Shown here one piece after another: positions 7,824-21,335 of a stretch of DNA of 64,000 nucleotides (position 1 is its first letter; the number at the start of each line of letters is the position of its first letter). Source of the stretch: Archangium sp. (GTDB taxonomy: Bacteria > Myxococcota > Myxococcia > Myxococcales > Myxococcaceae); the NCBI GenBank assembly GCA_030695565.1, contig JAUYRZ010000029.1:1-64000 (forward strand), given 5' to 3'. Both the position numbers and the translations under genes were made by a program. The notes below the pieces were generated by a model, which saw only the letters and a program-made list of their open reading frames with translations, did not search any database and was not told where the DNA came from.

Positions 7824-8946
7824 TTACTCCGGCAACGCCTTCGCCGGGTTCTTCACGCCCATCAACTGCGCGGTGATGAACTCTTCGAGATCACCATCGA
7901 GCACCTTGTCGGGCTGACCCGACTCGACGCCGGTGCGCAGGTCTTTGACCATGCGGTACGGCGCGAGCACGTAGCTGCGGATCTGCGAGCCGAAGCTGAT
8001 GTCGGCCTTGTTGCCTTCACGCGAGGCAGACTCGGCTTCGCGCTTCTTGATCTCGAGGTCGTACAGACGCGAGCGCAGAATCTGAAACGCCATGTCCTTG
8101 TTCGCGCTCTGGCTGCGTTCGGTCTGCACCGTGAGCACGATGTTCGTGGGGATGTGGCGCAGCTGCGCGGTGGAGCTGGTCTTGTTGACCTTCTGACCGC
8201 CGGCGCCCGAGCCGCGGATGAACTTGAGCTCGTAGTCCTTCTCGGGGATGTCGATCTTGATGGTGTCGTCGACCTCCGGGTACACGTCGACGGAGGCGAA
8301 CGAGGTGTGACGACGCGCGTTCGAGTCGTACGGCGAGATGCGCACCAGGCGGTGCACGCCCATCTCGGCCTTCATGTAGCCGTAGGCGTTGTCGCCCACG
8401 ATGCGCAGCGAGGCGTTCTTGATGCCCGCTTCTTCGCCTGCGTTGTAGTCACTGACCTCGACGGTCCACCCGCGGCGTTCGCAGTAGCGCGTGTACATGC
8501 GGTACAGCATCGAGGCCCAGTCCATCGACTCGGTGCCGCCGGCGCCCGCGTTGATGTCGACGTAGCAGTTCAAGTGATCGTTGGGCCCCGAGAGCATCTT
8601 CTGCAGCTCGAGCACCTTGAGTTGATCTTCGACCCCCGGAAGCAGGGCCAGACCCTCCTGCTTACTGGCGGCGTCGCCCATCTCCTCACCGAGATCGAGG
8701 AGCGTCTTGGCGTCATCGAAGCGGCGCTGGGTGGTCTCGAAGTGCGACAGCTGCTTTTCCAGCGTCGTCTTTTCCTTCAACATGCCCTGCGCTTTGACGT
8801 TGTCGTTCCAGAAGTCGGGCAACGTCGAATCACGTTCGATCAGCGCGATGCGGCTCTTCTTGCGGTCGACGTCAAAGCGACCCCCGGAGGCTCGCGAGCC
8901 TCGCCTGGAGGGAAGTCAGCTGCTCAGTGAGGATGTCGTTCGCCAT
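7824..8946 (-). CDS. prfB: Peptide chain release factor 2 with programmed +1 frameshift
   Basis: RF2 releases the finished peptide at UGA/UAA codons. Translation from ATG 8946-8944 gives 24 codons (MANDILTEQL...) ending CTT, followed by an in-frame TGA at 8874-8872. Reading +1 from CTT (next codon GAC) continues into the 349-residue main frame, for about 373 aa, close to the usual RF2 length. This is the autoregulatory CTT-TGA-C frameshift known in most bacterial prfB genes. The GGQ peptidyl-transferase motif is present (GSGAGGQKVN). The stop-reading tripeptide is SPY (RISPYDSNARRHTSF) rather than the textbook SPF, a variant I recall from other proteobacterial RF2s. The MFS-like gene follows 6 bp downstream; sodB is divergent. 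Confidence 0.96.
8871..8889 (-). promoter_or_regulatory. RF2 autoregulatory +1 recoding site
   Basis: On the minus strand the sequence reads CGGGGGTCGCTTTGAC: a G-rich Shine-Dalgarno-like tract, slippery CTT codon, TGA stop and a following C. This is the conserved layout of the RF2 shift site, in which low RF2 lets ribosomes pause at TGA and slip +1. Confidence 0.93.
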
Positions 8947-9074
8947 GGGGATATCCGTACGATGTTGGGTCGGCGTGACGCAAGCAGCATTCCCCTGCTG
9001 ACAACCGCGAGCGGGGCCATTAACTCAGCGGCCACATCTTTAGTTCAGTCCCACCCGAACGCAGGAGTCACCCC

Positions 9075-9653
9075 ATGAAGTTCGAGCTGGATCCTCTCCC
9101 CTACGCGAAGAACGCCCTGGTCCCTCACCTCTCCGAGGAGACGTTCTCGTTTCACTACGAGAAGCACCACCAGGCGTACATGACCAACTTGAAGAAGCTG
9201 CTCGAGGGCAAGCCGGAAGCCGAGAAGAGCCTCGAGGAGATCGTGAAGACCTCGTCGGGCGGCGTGTTCAACAACGCGGCACAGGTGTGGAACCACACCT
9301 TCTACTGGAACTCGATGAAGCCGGCCGGCGGCAACGAGCCCACGGGCGCGCTGGCTGACGCGATCAAGAAAGACTTCGGCAGCTTCGCCGACTTCAAGAG
9401 CCAGTTCTCCACCGCCTGCATCGGCCAGTTCGGCTCGGGCTGGGGTTGGCTGGTGAAGGACGCCGACAAGCTGAAGATCGTCACCACCGGCAACGCGGAG
9501 ACCCCCATCACCAAGGGTCAGAAGCCGCTCATCACCTGCGACGTCTGGGAGCACGCGTACTACATCGACTACCGCAACCTCCGCGCGAAGTACGTCGAGA
9601 CGTTCCTCAACAATCTCGTGAACTGGGATTTCGCGGCCGCGAACTTCAAGTGA
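9075..9653 (+). CDS. sodB: Superoxide dismutase, Fe type
   Basis: 192 aa, the standard length for Fe/Mn SOD; cytoplasmic, with no signal peptide. It dismutes superoxide to O2 and H2O2. Metal ligands are in the expected places: His27 (SFHYEKHH), His74 (VWNHTFYW), Asp156 and His160 (DVWEHAYY). Gln70 in NNAAQVWNH is the position that typically marks the iron enzyme. AGGAG lies 8 nt before ATG 9075. It is divergent from prfB over 128 bp and followed by a palindromic repeat and a probable terminator, so it is likely monocistronic. Confidence 0.96.
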   Translation: MKFELDPLPYAKNALVPHLSEETFSFHYEKHHQAYMTNLKKLLEGKPEAEKSLEEIVKTSSGGVFNNAAQVWNHTFYWNSMKPAGGNEPTGALADAIKKDFGSFADFKSQFSTACIGQFGSGWGWLVKDADKLKIVTTGNAETPITKGQKPLITCDVWEHAYYIDYRNLRAKYVETFLNNLVNWDFAAANFK

Positions 9654-9659
9654 TTCTCT

Positions 9660-9703
9660 TTCCCTCTCCCGCTGGGAGAGGGTCAGGGTGGTCAGGGTGA
9701 GGG
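9660..9703 (+). repeat. Dispersed GC-rich palindromic repeat, copy 1
   Basis: CCCTCTCCC GCT GGGAGAGGG followed by GGTCAGGGT (duplicated here) and GAGGG. It is the same family as copies at 39231, 39403 (inverted), 42808, 60342 (inverted), 63503 and 63564, always between genes. Confidence 0.7.
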
Positions 9704-9740
9704 CCTCGCTTGGGTAACCAAGCGGGGCTTCATCATTTTC
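9704..9740 (+). terminator. Probable intrinsic terminator after sodB
   Basis: A 10-bp stem (9704-9713 with 9718-9727, one G-T pair) and GTAA tetraloop is followed by a T-rich but interrupted run (CTTCATCATTTT). It lies about 50 bp past the sodB stop. Confidence 0.6.
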
Positions 9741-9762
9741 AGGCCGAGGCGCTGCGCAGGCC

Positions 9763-9900
9763 GTGATCAACCACCACCTGGAGAAGCGCATGCCGGGCGA
9801 CTTCGTGGGCATGGGTGTGCTCCTGGTCGGTATCGGCATCGGACCACTGTTCATTTACGAAGCCAGAAACCTCATGCGCCAGGCGGCGAATCGGGGCTGA
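9763..9900 (+). CDS. Possible small single-span membrane protein (45 aa)
   Basis: GTG 9763 opens a 45-codon frame (MINHHLEKRMPGDFVG...) with one hydrophobic helix of about 20 residues (VGMGVLLVGIGIGPLFIY) and a basic C-terminus. An internal ATG at 9790 gives a 36-aa version. The ribosome-binding site is weak and there is no homology I can name. The membrane-like composition and correct positive-inside tail make it worth listing, but it may be spurious. Confidence 0.35.
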   Translation: MINHHLEKRMPGDFVGMGVLLVGIGIGPLFIYEARNLMRQAANRG

Positions 9901-9946: not shown

Positions 9947-11968
9947 ATGTCCCGATTCGCACTGGCGTCGGCGTTGCTCGTTCTCTCATTCTCTTCGTGT
10001 CACGGCCCCGAGCGGTGCTCGACGGACAACGGCGGGTGCGATCCGCGCGTGACGTGTTCCGATACCGGGAGCGGCGTCATTTGCGGCGCGTGTCCCGACG
10101 GATTCAGCGGCGACGGCACCCGTTGCGAGGACATCGACGAGTGTCCCCAGGGTTGTGATGCCCGCACCACCTGCACCAACACCGAAGGCAGCTTTACCTG
10201 CTCGGCGTGCCCCGAGGGCTTCTCAGGCAAGGGCCGCGATGGATGCGTCGACGTCAACGAGTGTGAAGCCGACGCGGGCGTCTGCGATCCGCTGACGCCC
10301 TGCGCGAACACCGTCGGCAGCTTCAGCTGCGGCAATTGCCCGGCGGGGTACTCCGGCACCGACGCCGGCGCGTGTGTCGACGTCGACGAGTGCGCTACCA
10401 ACAACGGAGGCTGCTCGCCGCTGGTGACCTGCACCAACACCGTCGGCAGCTTCGCCTGCGGCACGTGCCCGAGCGGCTACCTCGCCGGAAACGACGGGAC
10501 CTGCGTGGACATCGACGAGTGCCTCACCGCCACCGCCTGCGACGCGCGCACCACTTGCAGCAACACGCCCGGCGACTACGTCTGCTCTGCATGCCCGACC
10601 GGCTTCACCGGCACCGGGAAGACGAGTTGTATGGACATCGACGAGTGTCTGAACGCCAGCTCCTGTGACCCGCTGACGGTCTGCATGAACACGCCGGGCG
10701 CCTTCACCTGCTCGGCCTGTCCCAGCGGATACAGCGGCACTGGCGTCACCGGGTGCATGGACGTCGACGAGTGCGCGGCCCCGAGCGCGTGCGACCCGCT
10801 CACCACCTGCAACAACACGCCCGGCAACTACACCTGCACGGCCTGCCCCTCGGGCTACACCGGCGCGGGCAAGACCGGCTGCATGGACGTCAATGAGTGC
10901 ATGAGCGCCAGCGCCTGCGACGCGCTCACCACCTGCAACAACACGCCAGGCAACTACACCTGCACGGCCTGCCCTGCTGGCTACACGGGCACGGGGAAGA
11001 CCACGTGCGTGGTGATTCCCTCCGTGGTCACCGTCTCGGTCAGCGACGCAGCGATGGCCGAGCCTTCCAACACCGCGACCCTTCGGGTCGATCGCGGCGC
11101 CGCGCGCGTGGGCGCCATCACGGTGACGCTGGCACGCCAGAGCAGCTCGACCCTGCGCCTCGTGGCGGCCTCACCCTTCCCCGCGGATGTGACCACCAGC
11201 GCGGGCACGCTCACCGCGAACGCGCTGACCGTCACCATTCCCAACGGCAGCGGCTTCGTCGACGTCGTGCTCAGCCCCGTCGACAACACCCACGCCGAGG
11301 CGTCCGAGACCCTCGCACTCGTGGCGCAGGCAGGCACTGGCTTCACGCTCGGCGGCAGCACCACGGCCAACCTGACGATCGACGCGACCGGGGGATCCGT
11401 GCTGCACGACGGGGACTCGACCTCGAACTACGCCGTGCTCGAGGGCTCGCTGCGCCAGGGCTTTCTCAACTTGAACTCGGGCGCGACGACGCTGGTGCGC
11501 ACCAGTGCCGCGCTGAGCATCATTCTCGTCGCGGGGCTTCCGCTGCTCACGGCCAGCAACGTCACCGTGGAGAACACGGGCGCGGGACTCACCCAGCTCA
11601 ACGGCAACGGCACGTTCCGACTGCTCGAGAACCGCGGCAACAGCGTCGTCTTCAGGAAGCTGCAGTTCCGCCTGGGCTTCGACCCGGCCCTGGGGGGGGC
11701 GATCCTCAATCGGGGCGCGCTCACTCTCGACCAGTGCACCTTGAGCGAGAACGTGTCGCCACGAGGGTCGGCGTTGAACAACTTCGCCACCAGCCCTCCG
11801 AGCGTCGCGTTCACGGGCTGCATCGTGCGAGACAACACCGGATCTCAAGCCCTGGAGAACGCCGGCGGCACCATGACCATCACGAACAGCGCCTTCTCCG
11901 GGAACACGTCCGGCAACACCGTGGGCGGCTACACCAACGGCGGCGGCAACACGCCAGCCAACCCCTGA
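9947..11968 (+). CDS. Exported multi-EGF / Calx-beta / beta-helix surface protein
   Basis: 673 aa. An N-terminal export signal ends LSFSSC, a borderline lipobox. Eight consecutive six-Cys EGF-like modules follow (about residues 23-355); seven begin D(I/V)(D/N)EC, the calcium-binding EGF signature, with NTxGxFxC and CPxGYxGTG blocks. Next comes a Calx-beta-like domain (about 358-475, NTATLRVDRG to ETLALVAQ) and a C-terminal right-handed beta-helix-like part (about 485-670) with repeating GGAILNRGALTLDQCTLSENV strands. The EGF modules repeat at about 126 bp in the DNA and the last two are nearly identical, a sign of recent tandem duplication. Such proteins are usually surface-exposed and bind calcium; the partner is unknown. 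It stands alone between sodB and a convergent gene. Confidence 0.8.
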   Translation: MSRFALASALLVLSFSSCHGPERCSTDNGGCDPRVTCSDTGSGVICGACPDGFSGDGTRCEDIDECPQGCDARTTCTNTEGSFTCSACPEGFSGKGRDGCVDVNECEADAGVCDPLTPCANTVGSFSCGNCPAGYSGTDAGACVDVDECATNNGGCSPLVTCTNTVGSFACGTCPSGYLAGNDGTCVDIDECLTATACDARTTCSNTPGDYVCSACPTGFTGTGKTSCMDIDECLNASSCDPLTVCMNTPGAFTCSACPSGYSGTGVTGCMDVDECAAPSACDPLTTCNNTPGNYTCTACPSGYTGAGKTGCMDVNECMSASACDALTTCNNTPGNYTCTACPAGYTGTGKTTCVVIPSVVTVSVSDAAMAEPSNTATLRVDRGAARVGAITVTLARQSSSTLRLVAASPFPADVTTSAGTLTANALTVTIPNGSGFVDVVLSPVDNTHAEASETLALVAQAGTGFTLGGSTTANLTIDATGGSVLHDGDSTSNYAVLEGSLRQGFLNLNSGATTLVRTSAALSIILVAGLPLLTASNVTVENTGAGLTQLNGNGTFRLLENRGNSVVFRKLQFRLGFDPALGGAILNRGALTLDQCTLSENVSPRGSALNNFATSPPSVAFTGCIVRDNTGSQALENAGGTMTITNSAFSGNTSGNTVGGYTNGGGNTPANP

Positions 11969-12074: not shown

Positions 12075-13352
12075 TCAAGCGGCCTTCGCGAGCGGCACCG
12101 ACACGGGCTTCGCCGCCTTGTGACGCGCCTCGAGCCACCAGAGCGCTGCGAAGCCCACGTTGAGCGGCACCAGGATCGCGAGGATGTTGCCGTTGGCCTG
12201 ATCAGCTGACGGCAGCACCTTGATCAACACGCCGAGCACCGAGATCGCCGCGAGCACGGTCCACACCGCGCGGTTCCACTTCACCGCTCGTTTCGCGCCC
12301 CACATCAACATCAGCCCCAGCGGGAACAGCGCGAACGTCAGCGGGTTCGCCTGGAAGATGTTCTCGTTTCCGAAGGTCACGTCGTGATCCGTCGCGGTCA
12401 TCAGGAAGCCGAGCGCGAGCCCAAGAATGCCGAGCACGAGGCCGATGAGCGAGGTGTAGAGCCCGAGCAGCACGCGCGGCAGCTTCTTGCCGTCACGGCC
12501 CCAGTGACCGAGCCCGTGCGCGATGCCTGCGAGGAAGAGACCCACCAGCAGCTCGTAGAGAATCCAGTTCGGTGCAGTTGCGGGCGGCGGCGTGCGATCA
12601 CTCTTGAACCAGTTGCGCTGCGTCTTCACCAACGGCCTCGTCGTGCCGTCTGCTCTCTTCACCTGCAGCGCTTGCAGCTGGGCTTCCAACTCATCGGGCA
12701 GATACGCGTCTTGAAGACCCGTGATCGGTTTGTCGAGTGAGTCGGCCTGCAGGTAATCGAGCACCAGCGACATCGGCGGATTCACCATCGAGTACCGCAG
12801 CGTGTGCTGACGCAGGGTCATGCGCGAGGTGCCTGAGGTGGCGGCTTTGAGCTGACCTCCGATCGCCGCGTCGATGATGTCGCGCGGCCTCGTGGAGCAG
12901 TTGTCGTTGTAGTGGTGGTACCGGTACATCCGGTTTTCCGGCAACACGTTGGTGCCCAGCGATTTTGCGACGGCCATCGCTTCGTCGGGCTCCAGATCGA
13001 GCTCCTGCAACCGCACGTCTCGCTTGAGCTGGTTCTTGTAGAAACTGAACGTGCCCTGCGCGGAGTCGTCGGCCACCCAGAAGATCAACCGCCCTTTCGC
13101 GAAGTCCTTCACGAAGCCGACCGTGTCGCCTTCCTTCGGGCCGAACATGCCGAAGTTGTAGAGACGCGCGTGGTTGAGGCGTCTGTCTTCGACCACGAAC
13201 GACGTGTGGCCCCACCACTCCACGAGCGAGTCGCCGGGGCTGAAGGTGACCAGCGTGATGGAGAGATCGGCTGGTTGAGTCTGGCCCGTCATCCACGGCG
13301 GGAGAGATTGACCGGCGGTGAGCGCGAGCACGACTGGGAGGACCTGAAGCAC
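12075..13352 (-). CDS. DUF4105 (Lnb N-terminal-like) membrane protein
   Basis: 425 aa. After an N-terminal signal-like segment there is a periplasmic domain of about 220 residues matching DUF4105, now linked to the N-terminal domain of Lnb lipoprotein N-acyltransferases. His49 (VEWWGHTSF) and Cys152 (YNDNCSTRPRDII) are the conserved residues expected for a papain/NlpC-like thiol active site. Five or so transmembrane helices follow (about 270-415). The visible order, thiol domain then membrane domain, fits an enzyme working on lipid or lipoprotein substrates at the outer face of the inner membrane; that role is inference. The start is GTG 13352 with no clear Shine-Dalgarno. It is divergent from the anchor-V protein over 190 bp. 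Confidence 0.72.
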   Translation of the reverse strand: MLQVLPVVLALTAGQSLPPWMTGQTQPADLSITLVTFSPGDSLVEWWGHTSFVVEDRRLNHARLYNFGMFGPKEGDTVGFVKDFAKGRLIFWVADDSAQGTFSFYKNQLKRDVRLQELDLEPDEAMAVAKSLGTNVLPENRMYRYHHYNDNCSTRPRDIIDAAIGGQLKAATSGTSRMTLRQHTLRYSMVNPPMSLVLDYLQADSLDKPITGLQDAYLPDELEAQLQALQVKRADGTTRPLVKTQRNWFKSDRTPPPATAPNWILYELLVGLFLAGIAHGLGHWGRDGKKLPRVLLGLYTSLIGLVLGILGLALGFLMTATDHDVTFGNENIFQANPLTFALFPLGLMLMWGAKRAVKWNRAVWTVLAAISVLGVLIKVLPSADQANGNILAILVPLNVGFAALWWLEARHKAAKPVSVPLAKAA

Positions 13353-13543: not shown

Positions 13544-16054
13544 TTGTCCAAGCACCTCGTCATCGCCTGCCTCGGCCTGCTCTTCCCCCTTCACGCGTGG
13601 GCGTACGGCGGGGGCATCGTGGGTTACTCGGGCAAGGTCGCCTCGCAGACCTGCACGTCCTGCCACGGCGTCGGCGCCGGCGCGGCGCCCACCGTCACGC
13701 TCACCGGCCCGGCCACCCTCAACCCCGGCCAGCCCGGCAGCTACACCCTCACCCTCGCCGGCGGTCCGGGCGTGCGCGGGGGTATGAACGTGGCCACCAG
13801 CACCGCGGCCGCGGTGCTCACCGCCGGCCCGGGCAGCGCCAAGGAAGGCGCCGAGCTGCGCCACGCCTCTCCGCTGGCCTTCAGCGCCGGGCAGGTGAGC
13901 TGGACCTTCACCGTCACCGCGCCCACCACCGGCGGGTCGTTCACCCTCTACGGGGCGGGCAACTCGTGCAACGGCTCGGGCACCGGCGGCGATCGCAGCG
14001 CCACCGCCACCAAGGTGATCACCGTGAACGTGGTGAACCTGCCGCCCTCGGTCACCGTGGCCGCCGGCGCCGCCGCCACCAGCCCCACCACCCAGGCGCT
14101 CTCGGTGGGCGCCACCGACGACGGCGGCGAGGCCAACCTCACCTACACCTGGGCCGCCACCACCGCGCCCGCGCCGGTCACCTTCTCGGCGAACGGAACC
14201 AACGCCGCGAAGAACACCACCGCCACCTTCACCCGCGCGGGCAGCTACACCCTCGCCGTCACCATCCGCGACGCCCAGAACCTCACCACCACCAGCACCA
14301 CCACCGTCAACGTCGCCCCGCAGGTGATGAGCGTCACCGTGGCCCCGCCCTCGGTGGGCCTGGCCACCGGCCGCACCCAGCAGTTCACCGCCAGCGGCGT
14401 GGACCAGTTCGGCGCCGCCATCAGCCCCGCGCCTTCGTGGGCCTGGAGCGCCACCGGAGGCTCCATCAACCCCGCGAGCGGGCTGTTCACCGCGGGGAGC
14501 ACCGCCGGCGGGCCCTTCACGGTCACCGCGGCGTCGGGTGGAAAAACGGGCACCGCGCAGGTCACCGTCTCCGTGGGCTCGCCGCCCACCGTGGCCACCG
14601 CCGCCACCAGCAGCGCGCTGACCGGCACCACCCTCACCCTCACCGCGCTCGGCGCCGACGATGGTGGCGAAGGCAACCTCACGTACACCTGGCTCGTCGA
14701 GGGCGGGGCAGCGGTGGCCTTCAGCGTCAACGGCACCAACGAGGCGAAGCGCACGGTGGCCACCTTCGCGGCTGCCGGCAGCTTCACCTTCACCGTCGTC
14801 ATCCGCGACCTGGCCAACCTCACCGCCACCAGCTCGGTGCCGGTGGTGATCACCGCACAGCTGCAGGCCGTCGTGGTGAGCCCGGCCACCGCGGTGGTGC
14901 CGCCCGGAGGCACCCGGCAGCTCAGCGCCCGCGTGGAGGACCAGTTCGGCAACCCGCTGTCGCCCGCACCCACCGTCGCGTGGGCGGTGGCCAGCGCGGC
15001 CGGCACCATCAGCACCAGCGGGCTCTTCCGCGCCGCCGCCACGCCCGGCGGGCCGTACACCGTGACCGCCACCGCCGGCGGCCAGGCGGGCAATGCGGTG
15101 CTCAGCGTCAACACCGGCGGCGCGCCGCAGGTGTCCATGGCGCCCAGCGCCTCGCCCTCCACGGTCCTGGGCAAGTCCACCGCGCTGCGCGTGCTGGGCA
15201 GCGACGAGGGCGGCGAGGCGGGCCTGGTCTACACCTGGGTGGCCCTCGGCCCTTCGACGGTGAACTTCTCGGAGAACGGCTCCAACGCGGCGAAGAACAC
15301 CACCGCCCACTTCACGCGCGCGGGCAGCTACACCCTCACCGTCACCCTGACCGATCCCTCCGGCATGGCCACCGACGCGGTGGTGGACGTCACCGTGGCC
15401 CAGACGCTCATGACCATCACCGTCTCGCCCTCGGCCATCAACGTGTCGCCCAGCGGCACGCAGATCTTCGCCGCGGTGGCGAACGACCAGTTCGGCGCGC
15501 CGGCTGACGCCGTGCCGCAGGTGAGCTGGACGGTGAGCGGCGGGGGCTCCATCGACAGCCAGGGCCTGTTCACCGCGCGCGACACCGAAGGTGGCCCCTT
15601 CACCGTCACCGCCGCCGCCGGGCCGGTGCGCGGCACGGCGATCACCCGGGTGGGCGAGGGCCCCAGCGATCTCGAGGCCCCGTCCGTCACCCTGGGCGAG
15701 CTCGCGGCGACGCTCTCGGGAACGGTGAAGCTCACCGTGATGGCCCAGGACAACGTGGGCGTCACCCAGGTCACCTGGGTGCTCGACGGCAAGCCGCTGG
15801 GCACCGTCACCACCGCGCCCTGGGACTTCGTGCTGCGCACCCGCACGCTGGAGAACGGCGAGCATCGGCTCGAGGCCATCGCGCAAGACGCCGCGCTCAA
15901 CAGCGCGCGCAGCCCGCAGGTCGCCTTCGTGGTCGCCAACGACGTGCTGCAGGAGCTGGAGCCCGTCGTGGGCCTGGGCTGCAGCAGCATCGGGAGCGCG
16001 CCCTTCGCGCTGCTGGCGCTGCTGTGCGGCCTGCGGCTCCGCGCCCGGCGCTGA
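13544..16054 (+). CDS. Choice-of-anchor V / Ig-repeat surface protein with CxxCH and MYXO-CTERM-like anchor
   Basis: 836 aa from TTG 13544, chosen because AAGGAG lies 8 nt upstream and a clean signal peptide follows (LVIACLGLLFPLHAWA, cleavage before YGGG). The mature N-terminus has one CxxCH (Cys37, Cys40, His41: QTCTSCHG) and a reelin-like 'choice-of-anchor V' domain to about residue 165. Three alternating pairs of PKD-like (ATDDGGEANLTYTW type) and Big-2-like (VDQFGAAISPAPSW type) modules follow, then a final Ig-like domain. The C-terminus (GLGCSSIGSAPFALLALLCG then RLRARR) is Cys + hydrophobic helix + Arg tail, the MYXO-CTERM layout used for surface attachment by myxosortase. It is likely a surface-anchored, possibly heme-bearing protein under sigma-54 control. 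Confidence 0.8.
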   Translation: MSKHLVIACLGLLFPLHAWAYGGGIVGYSGKVASQTCTSCHGVGAGAAPTVTLTGPATLNPGQPGSYTLTLAGGPGVRGGMNVATSTAAAVLTAGPGSAKEGAELRHASPLAFSAGQVSWTFTVTAPTTGGSFTLYGAGNSCNGSGTGGDRSATATKVITVNVVNLPPSVTVAAGAAATSPTTQALSVGATDDGGEANLTYTWAATTAPAPVTFSANGTNAAKNTTATFTRAGSYTLAVTIRDAQNLTTTSTTTVNVAPQVMSVTVAPPSVGLATGRTQQFTASGVDQFGAAISPAPSWAWSATGGSINPASGLFTAGSTAGGPFTVTAASGGKTGTAQVTVSVGSPPTVATAATSSALTGTTLTLTALGADDGGEGNLTYTWLVEGGAAVAFSVNGTNEAKRTVATFAAAGSFTFTVVIRDLANLTATSSVPVVITAQLQAVVVSPATAVVPPGGTRQLSARVEDQFGNPLSPAPTVAWAVASAAGTISTSGLFRAAATPGGPYTVTATAGGQAGNAVLSVNTGGAPQVSMAPSASPSTVLGKSTALRVLGSDEGGEAGLVYTWVALGPSTVNFSENGSNAAKNTTAHFTRAGSYTLTVTLTDPSGMATDAVVDVTVAQTLMTITVSPSAINVSPSGTQIFAAVANDQFGAPADAVPQVSWTVSGGGSIDSQGLFTARDTEGGPFTVTAAAGPVRGTAITRVGEGPSDLEAPSVTLGELAATLSGTVKLTVMAQDNVGVTQVTWVLDGKPLGTVTTAPWDFVLRTRTLENGEHRLEAIAQDAALNSARSPQVAFVVANDVLQELEPVVGLGCSSIGSAPFALLALLCGLRLRARR

Positions 16055-16331
16055 AACAAGCCGAAAATTCTCCCTCGAAGGTGTCCCCTGCCAGAGGGAG
16101 CGCGCGCTTCGCGCAAGTCGAATTCTCCCTCGATGGCGTCCCCTGCCAGGGGGAGCGCTCGCTTCGCGCTGCGGTGCGGCCTGCGGCTCCGCGCCCGGCG
16201 CTGAAACAAGCCGAAATCCCTCGAAGGTGTCCTCTGCCAGGGGACAGTGCCCTGTGTGGTGCACAGGTGGTCTGCGCGCGCTCCACCGCCCGGCCCGCCT
16301 GACGGCGCTGAAGTGTCCCCTGCCAGAGGAC
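16025..16331 (+). repeat. Repeat-rich spacer: 150-bp-period duplication of the gene end plus short GTGTCCCCTGCCAG units
   Basis: The 42 bases 16025-16066 (final codons, stop and start of the spacer) recur exactly at 16175-16216, and similarity continues to about 16240 apart from a 4-base gap. Between them a 51-bp unit (16070-16117, 16121-16168) is nearly duplicated, and the core GTGTCCCCTGCCAGAGG recurs near 16081, 16136, 16227 and 16313. CTCCCTC..GAGGGAG arms make each unit a potential hairpin. The remainder to 16424 shows no gene. Confidence 0.75.
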
Positions 16332-16424
16332 TTGCCCTCGGCCGTGGTCACCTGGCGTCTCCTCGCTCCAGCAGACGGCCCGCGGTGCAGCGCGCTCCCC
16401 CAGCAAAGTGCAGCGGATCGGTGC

Positions 16425-16440
16425 TGGCACGACGCGTGCG
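16425..16440 (+). promoter_or_regulatory. Second sigma-54 (-24/-12) promoter match
   Basis: TGGCAC-GACGC-GTGCG has the same -24 element, the same one-base difference in the -12 element and the same GG-N10-GC spacing as the site at 13491. The predicted start near 16451 leaves a leader of about 34 nt to the ATG at 16485. Confidence 0.6.
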
Positions 16441-16484
16441 TAGGAGGCCCGGCGCAACCCAACCCGGTTTGGCAGAGGTGGCCG

Positions 16485-17417
16485 ATGCTGAAGACGACGC
16501 CCATGAAAGTCTCCCCGCTGATCCTCGGCGCCCTGCTCGCCTCCGGCGTAGCCCTGGGCCAGACCGCCGAGTCGCGCGCGCGCTGCGCCACCCGACTGTC
16601 CGCCACCCTGCTGGGTCAGACGCCCACGGCGGCGCTGCTGGGCTCGGCGAACCCGCAGGACAACGTCGACGCGATGATCGCCACCGCGGTCTTCCAGGAG
16701 AAGTTCGCGCGCTTCATCAACGCCAAGTTCAACGGCGACCCGGGCGCCACGCCCGCGGAGGACGCCAGCTACTACCTGGCCAGGCACGTGCTGGCGAACA
16801 ACCGCCCCTGGGCAGACCTCTTTCTGGGCCAGTTCCGGGTCGACCCGGGCGCCACCGCCAACGCCGACGCGGTGGTGGTCGCCGACCCGCAGGGCCTGGG
16901 CTACTTCCGCAGCCGCGCGTGGATGGTGCGGTACGCGGGCAACGAGCTCGACGGCTACCGCATCAACGCCGCCTACCGGCTGATGAACAACGTGCTGGGG
17001 CTCGAGCTGGTGGCCGCGGTCAACACCAACGGGGTCAACGCCTCGGGCCGCATGCAGGCCGCCTGCGCCGGCTGCCACTACAACCAGACCTTCGGCCTCG
17101 ACTACGTGGCGAAGATCCTCTCCCGCCGGGTGGGCACCAACGCCAACACCATGACCTTCGCCGCGCCCAACGAGGGCCCCCAGCCGGTGCTGGGCGGGCA
17201 GATGCTCTCGAATGATCAGCAGTTCGTCACCACCATGGTGAGCTCTGCCGACTTCCGCTTCAACGCCTGCCGCACCGCGATGGAGTTCCTCTACAACCGC
17301 GCCGAGTTCAAGTGCGAGGGCCCGGTGTTCGACGCGTGCATGACCGCGTTCGCCGCCAGCCGCACCATCCAGTCCGCCGTCTCCGCCATCGCCAGGGATC
17401 CTGGCTTCTGCCAGTGA
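16485..17417 (+). CDS. Exported CxxCH (c-type heme) protein of the DUF1501 cluster
   Basis: 310 aa. A signal peptide (VSPLILGALLASGVALG, cleavage near QT) is followed by a mostly helical, Ala/Asn-rich domain with a single heme motif, Cys194-Ala-Gly-Cys197-His198 (QAACAGCHYNQTFGLDYVAK). I do not recognise the family. ATG 16485 has AGAGGTGG just upstream; ATG 16503 is an alternative. It is followed after 14 bp by a CARDB-like lipoprotein gene and then a DUF1501 gene on the same strand. Cytochrome-type proteins next to DUF1501 genes are also common in planctomycetes and other myxobacteria, which suggests a functional unit; the reaction is unknown. Confidence 0.7.
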   Translation: MLKTTPMKVSPLILGALLASGVALGQTAESRARCATRLSATLLGQTPTAALLGSANPQDNVDAMIATAVFQEKFARFINAKFNGDPGATPAEDASYYLARHVLANNRPWADLFLGQFRVDPGATANADAVVVADPQGLGYFRSRAWMVRYAGNELDGYRINAAYRLMNNVLGLELVAAVNTNGVNASGRMQAACAGCHYNQTFGLDYVAKILSRRVGTNANTMTFAAPNEGPQPVLGGQMLSNDQQFVTTMVSSADFRFNACRTAMEFLYNRAEFKCEGPVFDACMTAFAASRTIQSAVSAIARDPGFCQ

Positions 17418-17431
17418 AGAAAAGGACGACC

Positions 17432-20107
17432 ATGAAGACGACTCGAACGTTCCTGGTGTCGACGTGCGTGCTGCTCTGCGGCTGCGTGGGCGAGGTGGTG
17501 GAGGTCAGAGAGCTGATGCCCCCCGCCGAGATCTCCACCCGCGCTCCTGCAGTGCTCACCCTCACCACCTCGGCCAGCCCGGCGATGATCAGCGTGGGGC
17601 AGCAGCTGCTGCTCGAGGTGACGGTGCGCAACGGCGGTGAGACCACCGCCTCGGCCGTGGTGCCGCGCACCCCCGTGCAGACCGGCAGCGGCCTGGCCGC
17701 CATCGACAGCTCGCCCAACCCGGTGGACATCGAAGGCGGGCAGTCCCACGTCTTCACCTTCGTCTACACGGCGACCGACCCCGGCTCGATCTCCTTCGAG
17801 GTGGGCGCCGACGGGGTCGATATGGAGCACGACCGCAGCGTCACCGCGATGCCCGCCACCACCTCGGTCATCGTGCAGAGCGCGGCCATGCTCACGCTGG
17901 AGGCCCTCACCACCCCCACCCACGTGGTGCTGGGCGCCGAGTTCACCGTCACCATGACGGTGCTCAACGGCGGCCAGTCGCCCGCCACCGCCGTCACCCC
18001 CGACCTGCTGACCTCGAGGGGCGAGGGCGCCGCGACGCTGGTCTCCGGCCCCACCCCCGCCTTCACCGACGTGCCGCGCGGCGGCGCCGTGACCTTCGCG
18101 TGGACCTTCCGGGCCACCCAGCTCGGCAGGCTCACCTTCACCGGCGGCGCCTCGGGGCTCGATGGCAACAGCAACGCCCCGGTGCTGGCGGAGCCGGTGA
18201 GCTCGCCGGCCATCACCCTGGACACCCCGGCGCAGCTCGAGGCCCTGTTCTCGGTGCCCGCCCACCTCACCGTGGGCCAGCCCTTCACCGCCACCCTGGT
18301 GGTGAAGAACAGCGGGAGCGCGCTGGCGAAGAACGTGCTGCCCAACCCGCCGGCCACCACGGGCGGGGCCGCCACCACCACCACCGTGGCCACCCCGGTG
18401 GATCTCCCCGGCGGCGCCACCGCCGTCTTCACCTGGAGCTACACCGCCACCGGCACCGGGAACCTCTCGCTGGCCACCGTGGCGAGCGGGGTCGATCAGG
18501 CGCAGGGCCTCACCATCCACTCCAACCCGGCCACCTCGAACACCGCGACGGTGCAGGCGCCCTCCGCGCTGGTGGTGACGGCCCTCACCGTGCCCTCGCT
18601 CATCACCCGCGGCCAGACCTTCGACGTCACCCTGGTGGTGAAGAACACCGGCACCACGGCGGCCAACAACGTGGTCCCCAACCCCAACCCGGCCACCCTC
18701 ACGGTGACGGGGGGCGCGGGCGCCACCACCAGCAGCCAGCCCGCGGCGCAGAACCTCGCCGCCGGCGCGAGCGCCACCTTCACCTGGGCCTACACGGAGA
18801 ACGGCGCCGCGGCCGGCACCCTCGCCTTCACCGGCGGCGCGCGCAACGGCACGCTCACCAGCAGCCTCAGCGCGTCGAACCTGGCGGTGGTGGTGCCCGC
18901 GCCCACGCTGCTGATCGAGTCCATCACCCTGCCTCCGAAGGTGTCTCGTGGGCAGGCCTTCGACGCCACGGTGGTGGTGCGGAACACCGGCGGCGCGGCG
19001 GCGAGCGGGGTGGCCCCCAGCGTGAGCCTGACGGTGACGGGCGGCGTGCAGGCGAGCACCAGCGCGGCCGCGCCGGTCACCATCGGGGGCGGGGGGCGCG
19101 CCACCTTCGTCTTTCCGATGACGGAGCGCGGCACCGGCCCCGGCACCCTGCGCGTGCAGGCCACCGCCAGCGGCACCGGCGGGGCCACCGGTGAGGTGCT
19201 CAGCTCGGTGCCGCTGCAGTCACTGACCACCACCGTGGAGTCGGCCGCGCAGCTGAGCATCACCGCCTTCACCATCCCCGCCGCCGTCGACCGCGGCGGT
19301 GGCTTCACGCTCTCCATGACGGTGAACAACGAAGGCCAGGCCGCGGCGATGAACGTGACGCCCATCCCCGCGCCGCCCTCGGCGATGCTGACGGGCGGGG
19401 TGCGGGTCGCCACCACCAGCGTGCCCACGCCGGTCACCATCCCCGGCAACTCCAGCCAGACCTTCACCTGGACCTATGCCGAGTCGGGCACCGCGGCCGG
19501 CACCCTGGCCTTCTCGGGCGGAGTGCAGGGCCTCGACGCCAACAGTGGCCAGGCGCTGGTGGTGCCGGCGCGGCTGTCGAACGCGGCGCCGGTGGCCACG
19601 CCCACGGGCTGCAACGGGAGCTTGCTCTACGCCGGCTTCGGCGGGCGCAGCCTCGACGGCGATCGCCTCGACCGGCTGGTGGGCACGGATCGCCTTCGGG
19701 TCAAGCCGTACCCGATGCTGGTGACGGACTACAACCGGGTGCTGGGCAGCACGCCCTCGGCGATTCAGAACCAGGCGCAGACCTTCAACCAGCCCCCGGG
19801 GCGTTGGGCCGAAGAGCAGGAGCTCAGCGCGGTCAGCCTGTACCAGTCGTTCCAGGCGTCGTTCCAGGGCTGCCTGGGCTTCACCAACGCCGGCACGGCG
19901 TACGCGGCGAACCCCACGGCGGCCACGGCCAACACCGAGTGCGCAAACTTTCAGCGGCGCTTCTGGTCACGGGTGCCCAGCGCGGCGGAGACGGCGGCCT
20001 GCGTGAGCTTCGCCACCTCGGCGGTGAACAACGATACCAACCCGCGGCGGCGCTGGGCCTACGCCTGTGCCGCGGTGCTGACCTCGACCGGTTTCCTCGC
20101 GCAGTAG
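17432..20107 (+). CDS. Large lipoprotein with CARDB/DUF11-like repeats
   Basis: 891 aa. It starts at ATG 17432 with AAAGGA 8 nt upstream; a lipoprotein signal follows (TRTFLVSTCVLLCGC, lipobox LCGC). The body is about six repeats of 110-120 residues, each with a GQ.F..T(L/M)VV.N.G..AA..V.P core and a (T/V)F.W.Y closing strand, typical of CARDB/DUF11 beta-sandwich adhesion-type modules. After a Cys near GCNGSLLYAG the last 160 residues (GRSLDGDRLDRLVG to the end, with FQRRFWSRVPSAAETAACV) form a different, helical domain. That ending resembles the helical segments of DUF1592-type proteins that accompany DUF1501 proteins, a weak resemblance. It is probably a surface scaffold in the same operon as the CxxCH protein and the DUF1501 gene. 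Confidence 0.72.
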   Translation: MKTTRTFLVSTCVLLCGCVGEVVEVRELMPPAEISTRAPAVLTLTTSASPAMISVGQQLLLEVTVRNGGETTASAVVPRTPVQTGSGLAAIDSSPNPVDIEGGQSHVFTFVYTATDPGSISFEVGADGVDMEHDRSVTAMPATTSVIVQSAAMLTLEALTTPTHVVLGAEFTVTMTVLNGGQSPATAVTPDLLTSRGEGAATLVSGPTPAFTDVPRGGAVTFAWTFRATQLGRLTFTGGASGLDGNSNAPVLAEPVSSPAITLDTPAQLEALFSVPAHLTVGQPFTATLVVKNSGSALAKNVLPNPPATTGGAATTTTVATPVDLPGGATAVFTWSYTATGTGNLSLATVASGVDQAQGLTIHSNPATSNTATVQAPSALVVTALTVPSLITRGQTFDVTLVVKNTGTTAANNVVPNPNPATLTVTGGAGATTSSQPAAQNLAAGASATFTWAYTENGAAAGTLAFTGGARNGTLTSSLSASNLAVVVPAPTLLIESITLPPKVSRGQAFDATVVVRNTGGAAASGVAPSVSLTVTGGVQASTSAAAPVTIGGGGRATFVFPMTERGTGPGTLRVQATASGTGGATGEVLSSVPLQSLTTTVESAAQLSITAFTIPAAVDRGGGFTLSMTVNNEGQAAAMNVTPIPAPPSAMLTGGVRVATTSVPTPVTIPGNSSQTFTWTYAESGTAAGTLAFSGGVQGLDANSGQALVVPARLSNAAPVATPTGCNGSLLYAGFGGRSLDGDRLDRLVGTDRLRVKPYPMLVTDYNRVLGSTPSAIQNQAQTFNQPPGRWAEEQELSAVSLYQSFQASFQGCLGFTNAGTAYAANPTAATANTECANFQRRFWSRVPSAAETAACVSFATSAVNNDTNPRRRWAYACAAVLTSTGFLAQ

Positions 20108-20122
20108 GAAGGACACACCACC

Positions 20123-21335
20123 ATGAACTTCTCTCGACGCAGCCTGCTCAAAGGTGCCGCTGGTCTCGCTGGAGCCGGGCTGTTCGCCGGCCCCTCGGGG
20201 CTCATTCCTTCCGCGTGGGGCCAGGCGGCGCCCCAGAAGTCGGCGGTGCTGATGGTGTTTTTTGCGGGGCGGCTACAACGCGCTCTTCTCGAACGCCGAC
20301 TCCTTCGCGCCCGCGGGCACCTTCGGGGTGACGGGCTCGAACACCAGGAACCTGGGCTCGGGCCTGGTGATCGACGCGCCCACCTACGGCACGTTGCCGG
20401 CGCTGGCGCTCTCGAACATGGCGGCCATCGGGGTGAACCACGGCATCTCGAGCCACGATCCGGCGCGCATGGCCGACTGGTCGAACGGCACCAAGAGCTA
20501 CGCGCTGATGCTGGCCAACGCGCTGGGCGGCACCGCGGCCATCAAGTGCGCGGTGGTGGGCGGCAACTTCCCCGACGGGCCCAGGCCCGCTGAGAACGGG
20601 GTGTCGATGCAGAGCATCACCGACATGACCACCACCATCAACGCGCTGGGGGGCGGCACCACCGACCCCACCATTCCGGATCGCGCCAAGGCGGCGGCGG
20701 CGCTGGGCGCGGCGCGCACCATGTCGGCGGCGCAGCTGAGCGGCAACGAGAGCTCGCTGGCCTCGGTGAAGGACGCCTACGACTCGTCGATCGCCGTGCT
20801 GCAGAGCAACAACACCCTGGCCTTCAACCCGGCCACGGTGGCGGCGGCGTACGGGCTGCCCACCAACACCCGGGCGGTCAACTCCTTCACCGCGCAGATG
20901 ATGGCGGCAGAGCTGATGGTGCTCGCCGGCACCAACGTGGTGTGCGCGGTGAACAACGGCTGGGACACCCACGGCGATCGCACGGGCTCGGTGGTGCGGC
21001 AGCGCATGACCGACGTCATCCTCCCCGGGTTGCGCACCTTCACGCAGCGCATGATGAGCCAGGGGACCCGCAACATCACGGTGGCGGTGTTCGGCGACTT
21101 CTCGCGCAGCCTCCCCGGCTCGGATCACGCGCGCTGCCTGGGCGCCACGGTGTGGGGCACCAAGGTGAGGCTGGGCGTCTCGGGCAAGGTGGCGGCGAAC
21201 GTGGGCATGCCCACGGCCAACCCCGCGGGCCAGGCGTACAGCGCGGCGGGCTTCTGGTCGTACCTGGCCGCCACCTCGAAGGCGCCCACCAACCCGTTCG
21301 GTGCCAACCCACACTCGGCGCTCGTGCTGCCCTGA
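20123..21335 (+). pseudogene. DUF1501-family Tat-exported protein, frameshifted at a T6 tract
   Basis: The 5' part (ATG 20123, GAAGGA upstream) encodes a twin-arginine leader (FSRRSLLKGAAGLAGAGLF...SAWGQ) and then KSAVLMVF, where the DUF1501 fold begins. The frame then breaks: after GTG, six T residues (20258-20263) precede GCGGGGC. Removing one T restores FLRGGYNALFSNAD and an uninterrupted DUF1501-like protein to 21335, about 403 aa in all. The downstream part keeps family features (ISSHDPARM, NNGWDTHGDRTG, FGDFSRSLPGSDHA). The break may be a sequencing error in the homopolymer, a real mutation, or slippage. DUF1501 proteins resemble sulfatase/phosphatase-fold enzymes exported folded by Tat. 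It is last in the cluster after the CARDB lipoprotein. Confidence 0.75.

Follow-up and report, generated by a model that had tools for sequence, protein, structure and literature searches.

A divergent PSCyt/PSD-DUF1501 cassette, very probably split over small exported proteins, in an Archangium draft genome

Do four consecutive genes for exported proteins, lying between positions 13,544 and 21,335 of a 64,000-nucleotide stretch of Archangium sp. DNA (assembly GCA_030695565.1, contig JAUYRZ010000029.1; G000:C26), belong to one system and, if so, to which? This stretch, referred to here as the window, comes from an 8.5 Mb myxobacterial draft genome. All four genes are on the forward strand and were predicted to encode exported products: a choice-of-anchor V protein (gene 1), a Sec-exported protein with a CAGCH motif (gene 2), a lipoprotein with CARDB repeats (gene 3) and a twin-arginine translocation (Tat) protein of the DUF1501 family (gene 4). 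Genes 2, 3 and 4 were separated by 14-15 bp, and the gap between genes 1 and 2 measured 430 bp. A sequence-only reading had recognized here two CxxCH proteins, a CARDB lipoprotein and a Tat DUF1501 protein, and these identifications held (motifs CTSCH and CAGCH, CARDB E 3.1e-14, PF07394 35.3 bits). The analysis presented below indicated that the locus is very probably a PSCyt/PSD-DUF1501 cassette whose PSCyt/PSD part is split over genes 2 and 3, PSCyt and PSD standing for planctomycete-specific cytochrome and domain proteins. Its main features were as follows.

13544..16054, + strand: gene 1, choice-of-anchor V domain, PKD/immunoglobulin-like (Ig-like) repeats and MYXO-CTERM-like tail (TTG start assumed)
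16485..17417, + strand: gene 2, Sec-exported CxxCH protein of 310 amino acids (aa), divergent PSD4-PSCyt3-PSD2 half by profile comparison
17064..17078, + strand: CAGCH motif in gene 2 (both Cys and the His invariant across 27 homologues)
17432..20107, + strand: gene 3, lipoprotein with LLCGC lipobox (read from sequence), CARDB/DUF11 repeats (by the CARDB match) and a conserved C-terminal domain
20123..21335, + strand: gene 4, Tat-signal DUF1501 protein, frameshifted (by the PF07394 match; TAT_signal_seq 17.2 bits)

The affiliation of gene 2 emerged from profile comparison. Its family was aligned by hhalign with a profile of nine PSD proteins from the host genome over 269 columns in a single alignment (E 3.9e-10), which spanned PSD4, the CxxCH region (PSCyt3) and PSD2 and placed CAGCH on the CKGCH of a host protein. 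The score of 81.1 compared with a maximum of 19.4 among 60 column-shuffled controls. A gene 2 hidden Markov model matched one PSD protein of the host at E 6.8e-6 over CxxCH and PSD2, and 13 of 18 gene 2 relatives weakly matched PSD2/DUF1585 (best E 1.5e-4). The order PSD5-PSD4-PSCyt3-PSD2 of intact proteins, as well as the labels PSCyt3 and PSD5 for unscanned regions, follows the Pfam families; in the ordinary PSCyt/PSD proteins of the host genome, a single lipoprotein bears all four. Profile comparison thus showed the C-terminal half, PSD4-PSCyt3-PSD2 with its CxxCH, to constitute a Sec-exported protein of its own in gene 2. The sequence-only reading had located both CxxCH motifs near otherwise unrelated domains, and this had to be revised: gene 2 is the PSD4-PSCyt3-PSD2 half and gene 1 a choice-of-anchor V protein.

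The complementary part was sought in gene 3, which is composed of two regions downstream of its lipoprotein start.

17522..19609, + strand: CARDB/Ig-like repeat insert (absent in most gene 3 homologues)
19610..20104, + strand: C-terminal domain of ~165 aa, PSD5 (DUF1595)-like (hhalign)

The tail of gene 3 fell on the last part of PSD5, immediately before PSD4 in intact proteins, with an hhalign score of 32.0 (maximum of 21.6 over 100 column shuffles); one relative displayed a PSD5 match at E 0.031. Intact PSCyt/PSD proteins of the host genome mostly begin as lipoproteins, like gene 3. Because of the gene 2 alignment, the placement of the gene 3 tail and this lipoprotein start, genes 2 and 3 were read as PSCyt/PSD halves in swapped order, the PSD5-like part probably being the C-terminus of a separate lipoprotein. 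In most loci the gene 3 counterpart was a short lipoprotein bearing only the conserved ~165 aa domain. The CARDB array was encountered in the window, in L050, L051 and L056, and also in L032 (from a clustering match); it is an optional local insert outside the cassette core.

Pairs of the same kind were abundant in the host genome, which displayed 15 PSD2 matches. All ten DUF1552 matches adjoined a PSD4/PSD2 protein, and an eleventh PSD2 protein (C86:110276-112969) was followed by a Tat-like protein below the DUF1552 model threshold. The seven DUF1501 genes were all accompanied by a CxxCH-type partner, namely four PSD2 proteins, two gene 2 cassettes (window and C50) and a lipoprotein of 775 aa in which CxxCH occurs twice. 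Altogether, the genome harbored about 18 pairs of a CxxCH/PSD protein with a Tat-type protein, either DUF1552 or DUF1501 (L092-L105), of which the window locus is one. The cassette resembles them in the alignment of gene 2, CxxCH in register, to the PSD4-PSCyt3-PSD2 half, in a lipoprotein whose tail falls on PSD5 and in a Tat partner. In contrast to them, it spreads these domains over two genes in swapped order, is much shorter and remains below Pfam thresholds; it is also paired with DUF1501, whereas DUF1552 is the partner of the intact proteins with PSD4 in this genome.

PSCyt/PSD pairing has been described in Planctomycetes and Verrucomicrobia; in the latter, PSCyt2/PSCyt3 genes usually adjoin two families of unknown genes, and nothing is known on the function of PSCyt2/PSCyt3 genes (PMC5615132). 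The module does not form a category of its own, being a divergent split form of an established, functionally blank system. The earlier view of an apparatus without described function stood as far as a conserved exported set is concerned and failed in that the set, as a variant of this pairing (PMC5615132), is not wholly undescribed. DUF1501 is also known from DUF1501-DUF1800 pairs, which were tied to chitin synthase operons by conserved operon organisation (PMC5122149). There, too, a Tat protein of the DUF1501 family has an uncharacterized partner. They differ in the partner family, and no chitin synthase was noticed near the window locus, for which no specific search was made.

Members of the gene 2 family were found in 11 of 60 related genomes, with a patchy distribution. 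A scan of named genome contigs yielded 26 named loci, all from metagenome-assembled genomes of Myxococcota, two of them incomplete (L056 contains gene 2 but breaks off early in CARDB, and L065 cuts DUF1501). A phylum-wide search detected gene 2 in 13 of 195 genomes; eight further places were checked, five of which were already in the set and three were new (L145, L146 and L147). The CAGCH gene, the gene 3 C-terminal domain and DUF1501 occurred together in all 26 named loci wherever the sequence extends, and the order was the same in all of them where the sequence sufficed: gene 2, then a gene whose 3' end encodes the C-terminal domain of gene 3, then DUF1501. The trio was also present in each of the three new loci, which had been held out. 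In L147 (4421-7041), from another family, the order was gene 3 tail, DUF1501, gene 2, and the maintenance of the trio despite this change argues for joint function over mere inherited synteny. The sequence-only reading had made its case depend on such co-occurrence, and the homologues did co-occur throughout. Apart from the cassette, choice-of-anchor V and local synteny, no neighbour clearly recurred among the loci.

The structural model of gene 2 was mostly helical (predicted local distance difference test, pLDDT, 90.2; predicted template modelling score, pTM, 0.86). Foldseek returned no PDB fold for it at E 0.001, and a sequence-based search for related solved structures returned none. Phycobilisome linkers were considered as its fold and rejected, the best Z of 5.5 being in the range where a common arrangement alone is possible. 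A far-diverged gene 2 was observed at L047 (6521-8130, - strand; E 9.4e-16), with a match resembling the gene 3 tail downstream (E 7.6e-5) and a Tat-like open reading frame upstream (8211-9881, - strand).

Gene 4 scored above the PF07394 gathering cut-off of 27. The sequence-only reading was right in calling it a Tat DUF1501 protein, which does not extend to a single open frame: it was split in two out-of-phase open reading frames, 20123-20593 with the Tat start and 20262-21335 with the DUF1501 body, by an extra base in the following run.

20258..20263, + strand: T6 run with the extra base breaking gene 4 (DNA alignment with three homologues)

Each of the 24 full-length homologues from the named loci was a single frame, the 79%-identical copy of L050 among them. 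Programmed frameshifting was excluded, relatives being intact and the aligned ones lacking the T6 run; a draft-assembly or sequencing error and a recent true break both fit. The protein was modelled from the intact L050 homologue (AlphaFold2, pLDDT 82.5), and structural re-alignment yielded a Z of 15.4 and 3.8 A over 232 residues to the nucleotide pyrophosphatase/phosphodiesterase (NPP) 7mw8. The 50 matches listed were, by title, apparently all enzymes of the alkaline-phosphatase superfamily, including sulfatases and phosphopentomutases; sequence-based matches to solved structures were weak and not credible. As modelled, the DUF1501 protein is thus of the alkaline-phosphatase-superfamily fold, in agreement with the phosphatase/sulfatase-like fold attributed to it earlier.

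The subfamily displayed invariant H105, H110, D281, H283, H335 and H397 and an acidic residue (D/E) at 325 (L050 numbering), as well as Ser/Thr at position 108 in 24 of 25 sequences. These His/Asp positions suggest that a metal site is retained. Gene 4 shares with other DUF1501 proteins its score, its Tat signal and its predicted fold. It differs from them in N51 (GGYNA), found throughout the subfamily at the position of the Asp in the GGxDG motif expected from other DUF1501 proteins, and in the frameshift of the window copy.

That replacement is one of two points in favor of an alternative in which the locus is an electron-transfer device: the CxxCH-bearing products of genes 1 and 2 carry electrons through the outer membrane or outside it, with DUF1501 as an inactive scaffold of alkaline-phosphatase fold. 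The other is the occurrence of two exported CxxCH proteins per locus with both motifs conserved. Such a device seems unlikely to us: each protein carries a single CxxCH, the invariant DUF1501 residues listed above speak for a kept metal site, and the neighbours seen included no recurrent porin or multiheme partner.

Gene 1 bears on a second alternative. Its N-terminus consists of a signal peptide followed by a choice-of-anchor V domain enclosing CTSCH; it matched choice-of-anchor V NF041895 at E 1.7e-39 (135.3 bits, above the cut-off of 42) and the MXAN_6652 family NF041894 at E 5.9e-46 (156.6 bits, below the equivalog cut-off of 200). The resemblance to choice-of-anchor V/MXAN_6652 proteins is thus confined to this CxxCH-bearing N-terminus, and gene 1 departs from them by its long PKD/Ig extension (K319L-like_PKD, PKD_4 and Big_7 repeats). 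The motif is maintained in the relatives as CTACH, CSGCH, CNQCH, CNKCH or CNECH.

13652..13666, + strand: CTSCH motif within the choice-of-anchor V domain (read from sequence)
15965..16051, + strand: MYXO-CTERM-like tail with Cys motif, hydrophobic stretch and Arg-rich end (GCSS...LRLRARR; read from sequence)
16016..16243, + strand: direct repeats, gene 1/gene 2 gap

MYXO-CTERM is a tripartite signal following the rule described in PMC11980579. In gene 1 the pattern was seen by eye and NCBIfam reported no match to a MYXO-CTERM model; similar tails were encountered in L051 and L056. Within the direct repeats, the last 39 nucleotides of gene 1 recur, stop codon included, about 150 bp further downstream, and a 27-nucleotide unit is present in four copies. 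A mobile or dispersed element was rejected as their origin, a single weak second match being found across the host genome.

A choice-of-anchor V gene accompanied the trio in 7 of the 26 named loci. Since the window's genome has just two copies of it, its proximity to the trio is unlikely to be due to chance. A short version was located directly 3' of DUF1501 in L057, L067, L063 and L062 (Labilithrix, Polyangiaceae and one unplaced Myxococcales locus), its frame overlapping the DUF1501 stop in L063. A similar small lipoprotein-like gene of ~190 aa was observed 3' of this short gene in L057 (10494-11072) and L063 (10524-11096). In L051 (4178-7849, 1224 aa) and L056 (4325-7876, 1184 aa), which belong to the same genome, a single stop-free frame encompassed genes 1 and 2. 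Their linker displayed lower third-position GC, and stops were rare in most frames there; given this composition and the stop-poor GC-rich DNA, fusion was kept as a possibility and not adopted as a general rule.

The second alternative sees the locus as a module of surface adhesion or of the matrix: its PKD, choice-of-anchor V and CARDB domains bind polymer or neighbouring cells, CxxCH is a zinc or disulphide site and not a heme site, and the phosphatase-fold protein does no more than tailor the ligand. It accords with the Ig-like repeats of genes 1 and 3 and with the finding that long PKD-type gene 1 and CARDB-type gene 3 come together, the loci with either being the loci with both. Most cassettes are devoid of both, however, which shows that adhesion repeats are not core, and CxxCH is invariant where repeats are not; we hold this module for improbable, to the same degree as the electron-transfer device. 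That the genes are unrelated neighbours or a decaying locus without joint function, as the gene 4 frameshift and the repeat-filled gap might suggest, is very improbable: at least 29 loci besides this one have the trio, and in one of them, from a distant family, its order is permuted.

The split PSCyt/PSD-DUF1501 cassette is thus retained, and a mechanism can be proposed for it. Genes 2 and 3 would dock and rebuild a PSCyt/PSD body on the outer membrane, anchored by the gene 3 lipid and supplied by gene 2 with one c-type heme. The gene 4 metalloprotein, exported pre-folded, would bind this body, and its target may be a phospho-, sulfo- or phosphodiester group on a polymer of the envelope or the cell exterior. 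Reach to the surface would be provided by the PKD repeats of gene 1 and by the CARDB array, as spacers or binding arms. Assembly of the gene 2/3 body with gene 4 appears moderately likely, and we lean, with some reserve, towards a single complex of the cassette products. DUF1501 catalysis is plausible but unproven from the residues conserved, and a metallo-esterase acting on polymer with a heme partner is put forward only tentatively. The redox or polymer-modifying role suggested by the sequence-only reading may apply to the cassette. Taken as a whole, with a split minimal PSCyt/PSD and DUF1501 pairing, a surface-anchored choice-of-anchor V subunit and this mechanism, the proposal is about evenly poised between right and wrong.

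Several observations weigh against it. Gene 2 of the window reached none of the Pfam families, so the curated scores of PSD2, PSCyt3 and PSD4 were unmet, and the one c-type heme it may carry is predicted from the CxxCH motif. The gene 3 tail, while well positioned on PSD5, matched it weakly (hhalign probability 19%). The window copy of gene 4 is broken, and Foldseek found nothing below E 0.001 for the DUF1501 model, the best hits, at E 8.5e-3, being to alkaline phosphatases and relatives. Finally, catalysis by DUF1501 is not assured because the expected GGxD Asp is replaced by Asn (N51) in this subfamily.

Two further genes were observed upstream of the locus. An Lnb-type lipoprotein N-acyltransferase homologue (12075-13352, - strand; Lnb_N E 5.3e-21) adjoins this lipoprotein-bearing locus and scored 127.9 bits with lpactltferLnb, under the equivalog cut-off of 550. 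Before it in the window lies a gene for an exported protein in which calcium-binding EGF-like repeats are numerous (9947-11968, + strand; EGF_CA E 2.6e-53).

For the PSCyt/PSD family, three small exported proteins, a CxxCH half, a PSD5-like lipoprotein and DUF1501, would reveal the essential parts of PSCyt/PSD-DUF1501 systems, and the small size of the cassette makes the family easier to express, mix and assay. Its most elaborate form would be a surface machine of four proteins, with a split one-heme PSCyt/PSD body that regulates or assists an alkaline-phosphatase-fold metalloenzyme and with genes 1 and 2 able to yield one polypeptide. This form is a distinctly long shot; if true, it would be the first minimal testable unit of PSCyt/PSD-DUF1501 systems.

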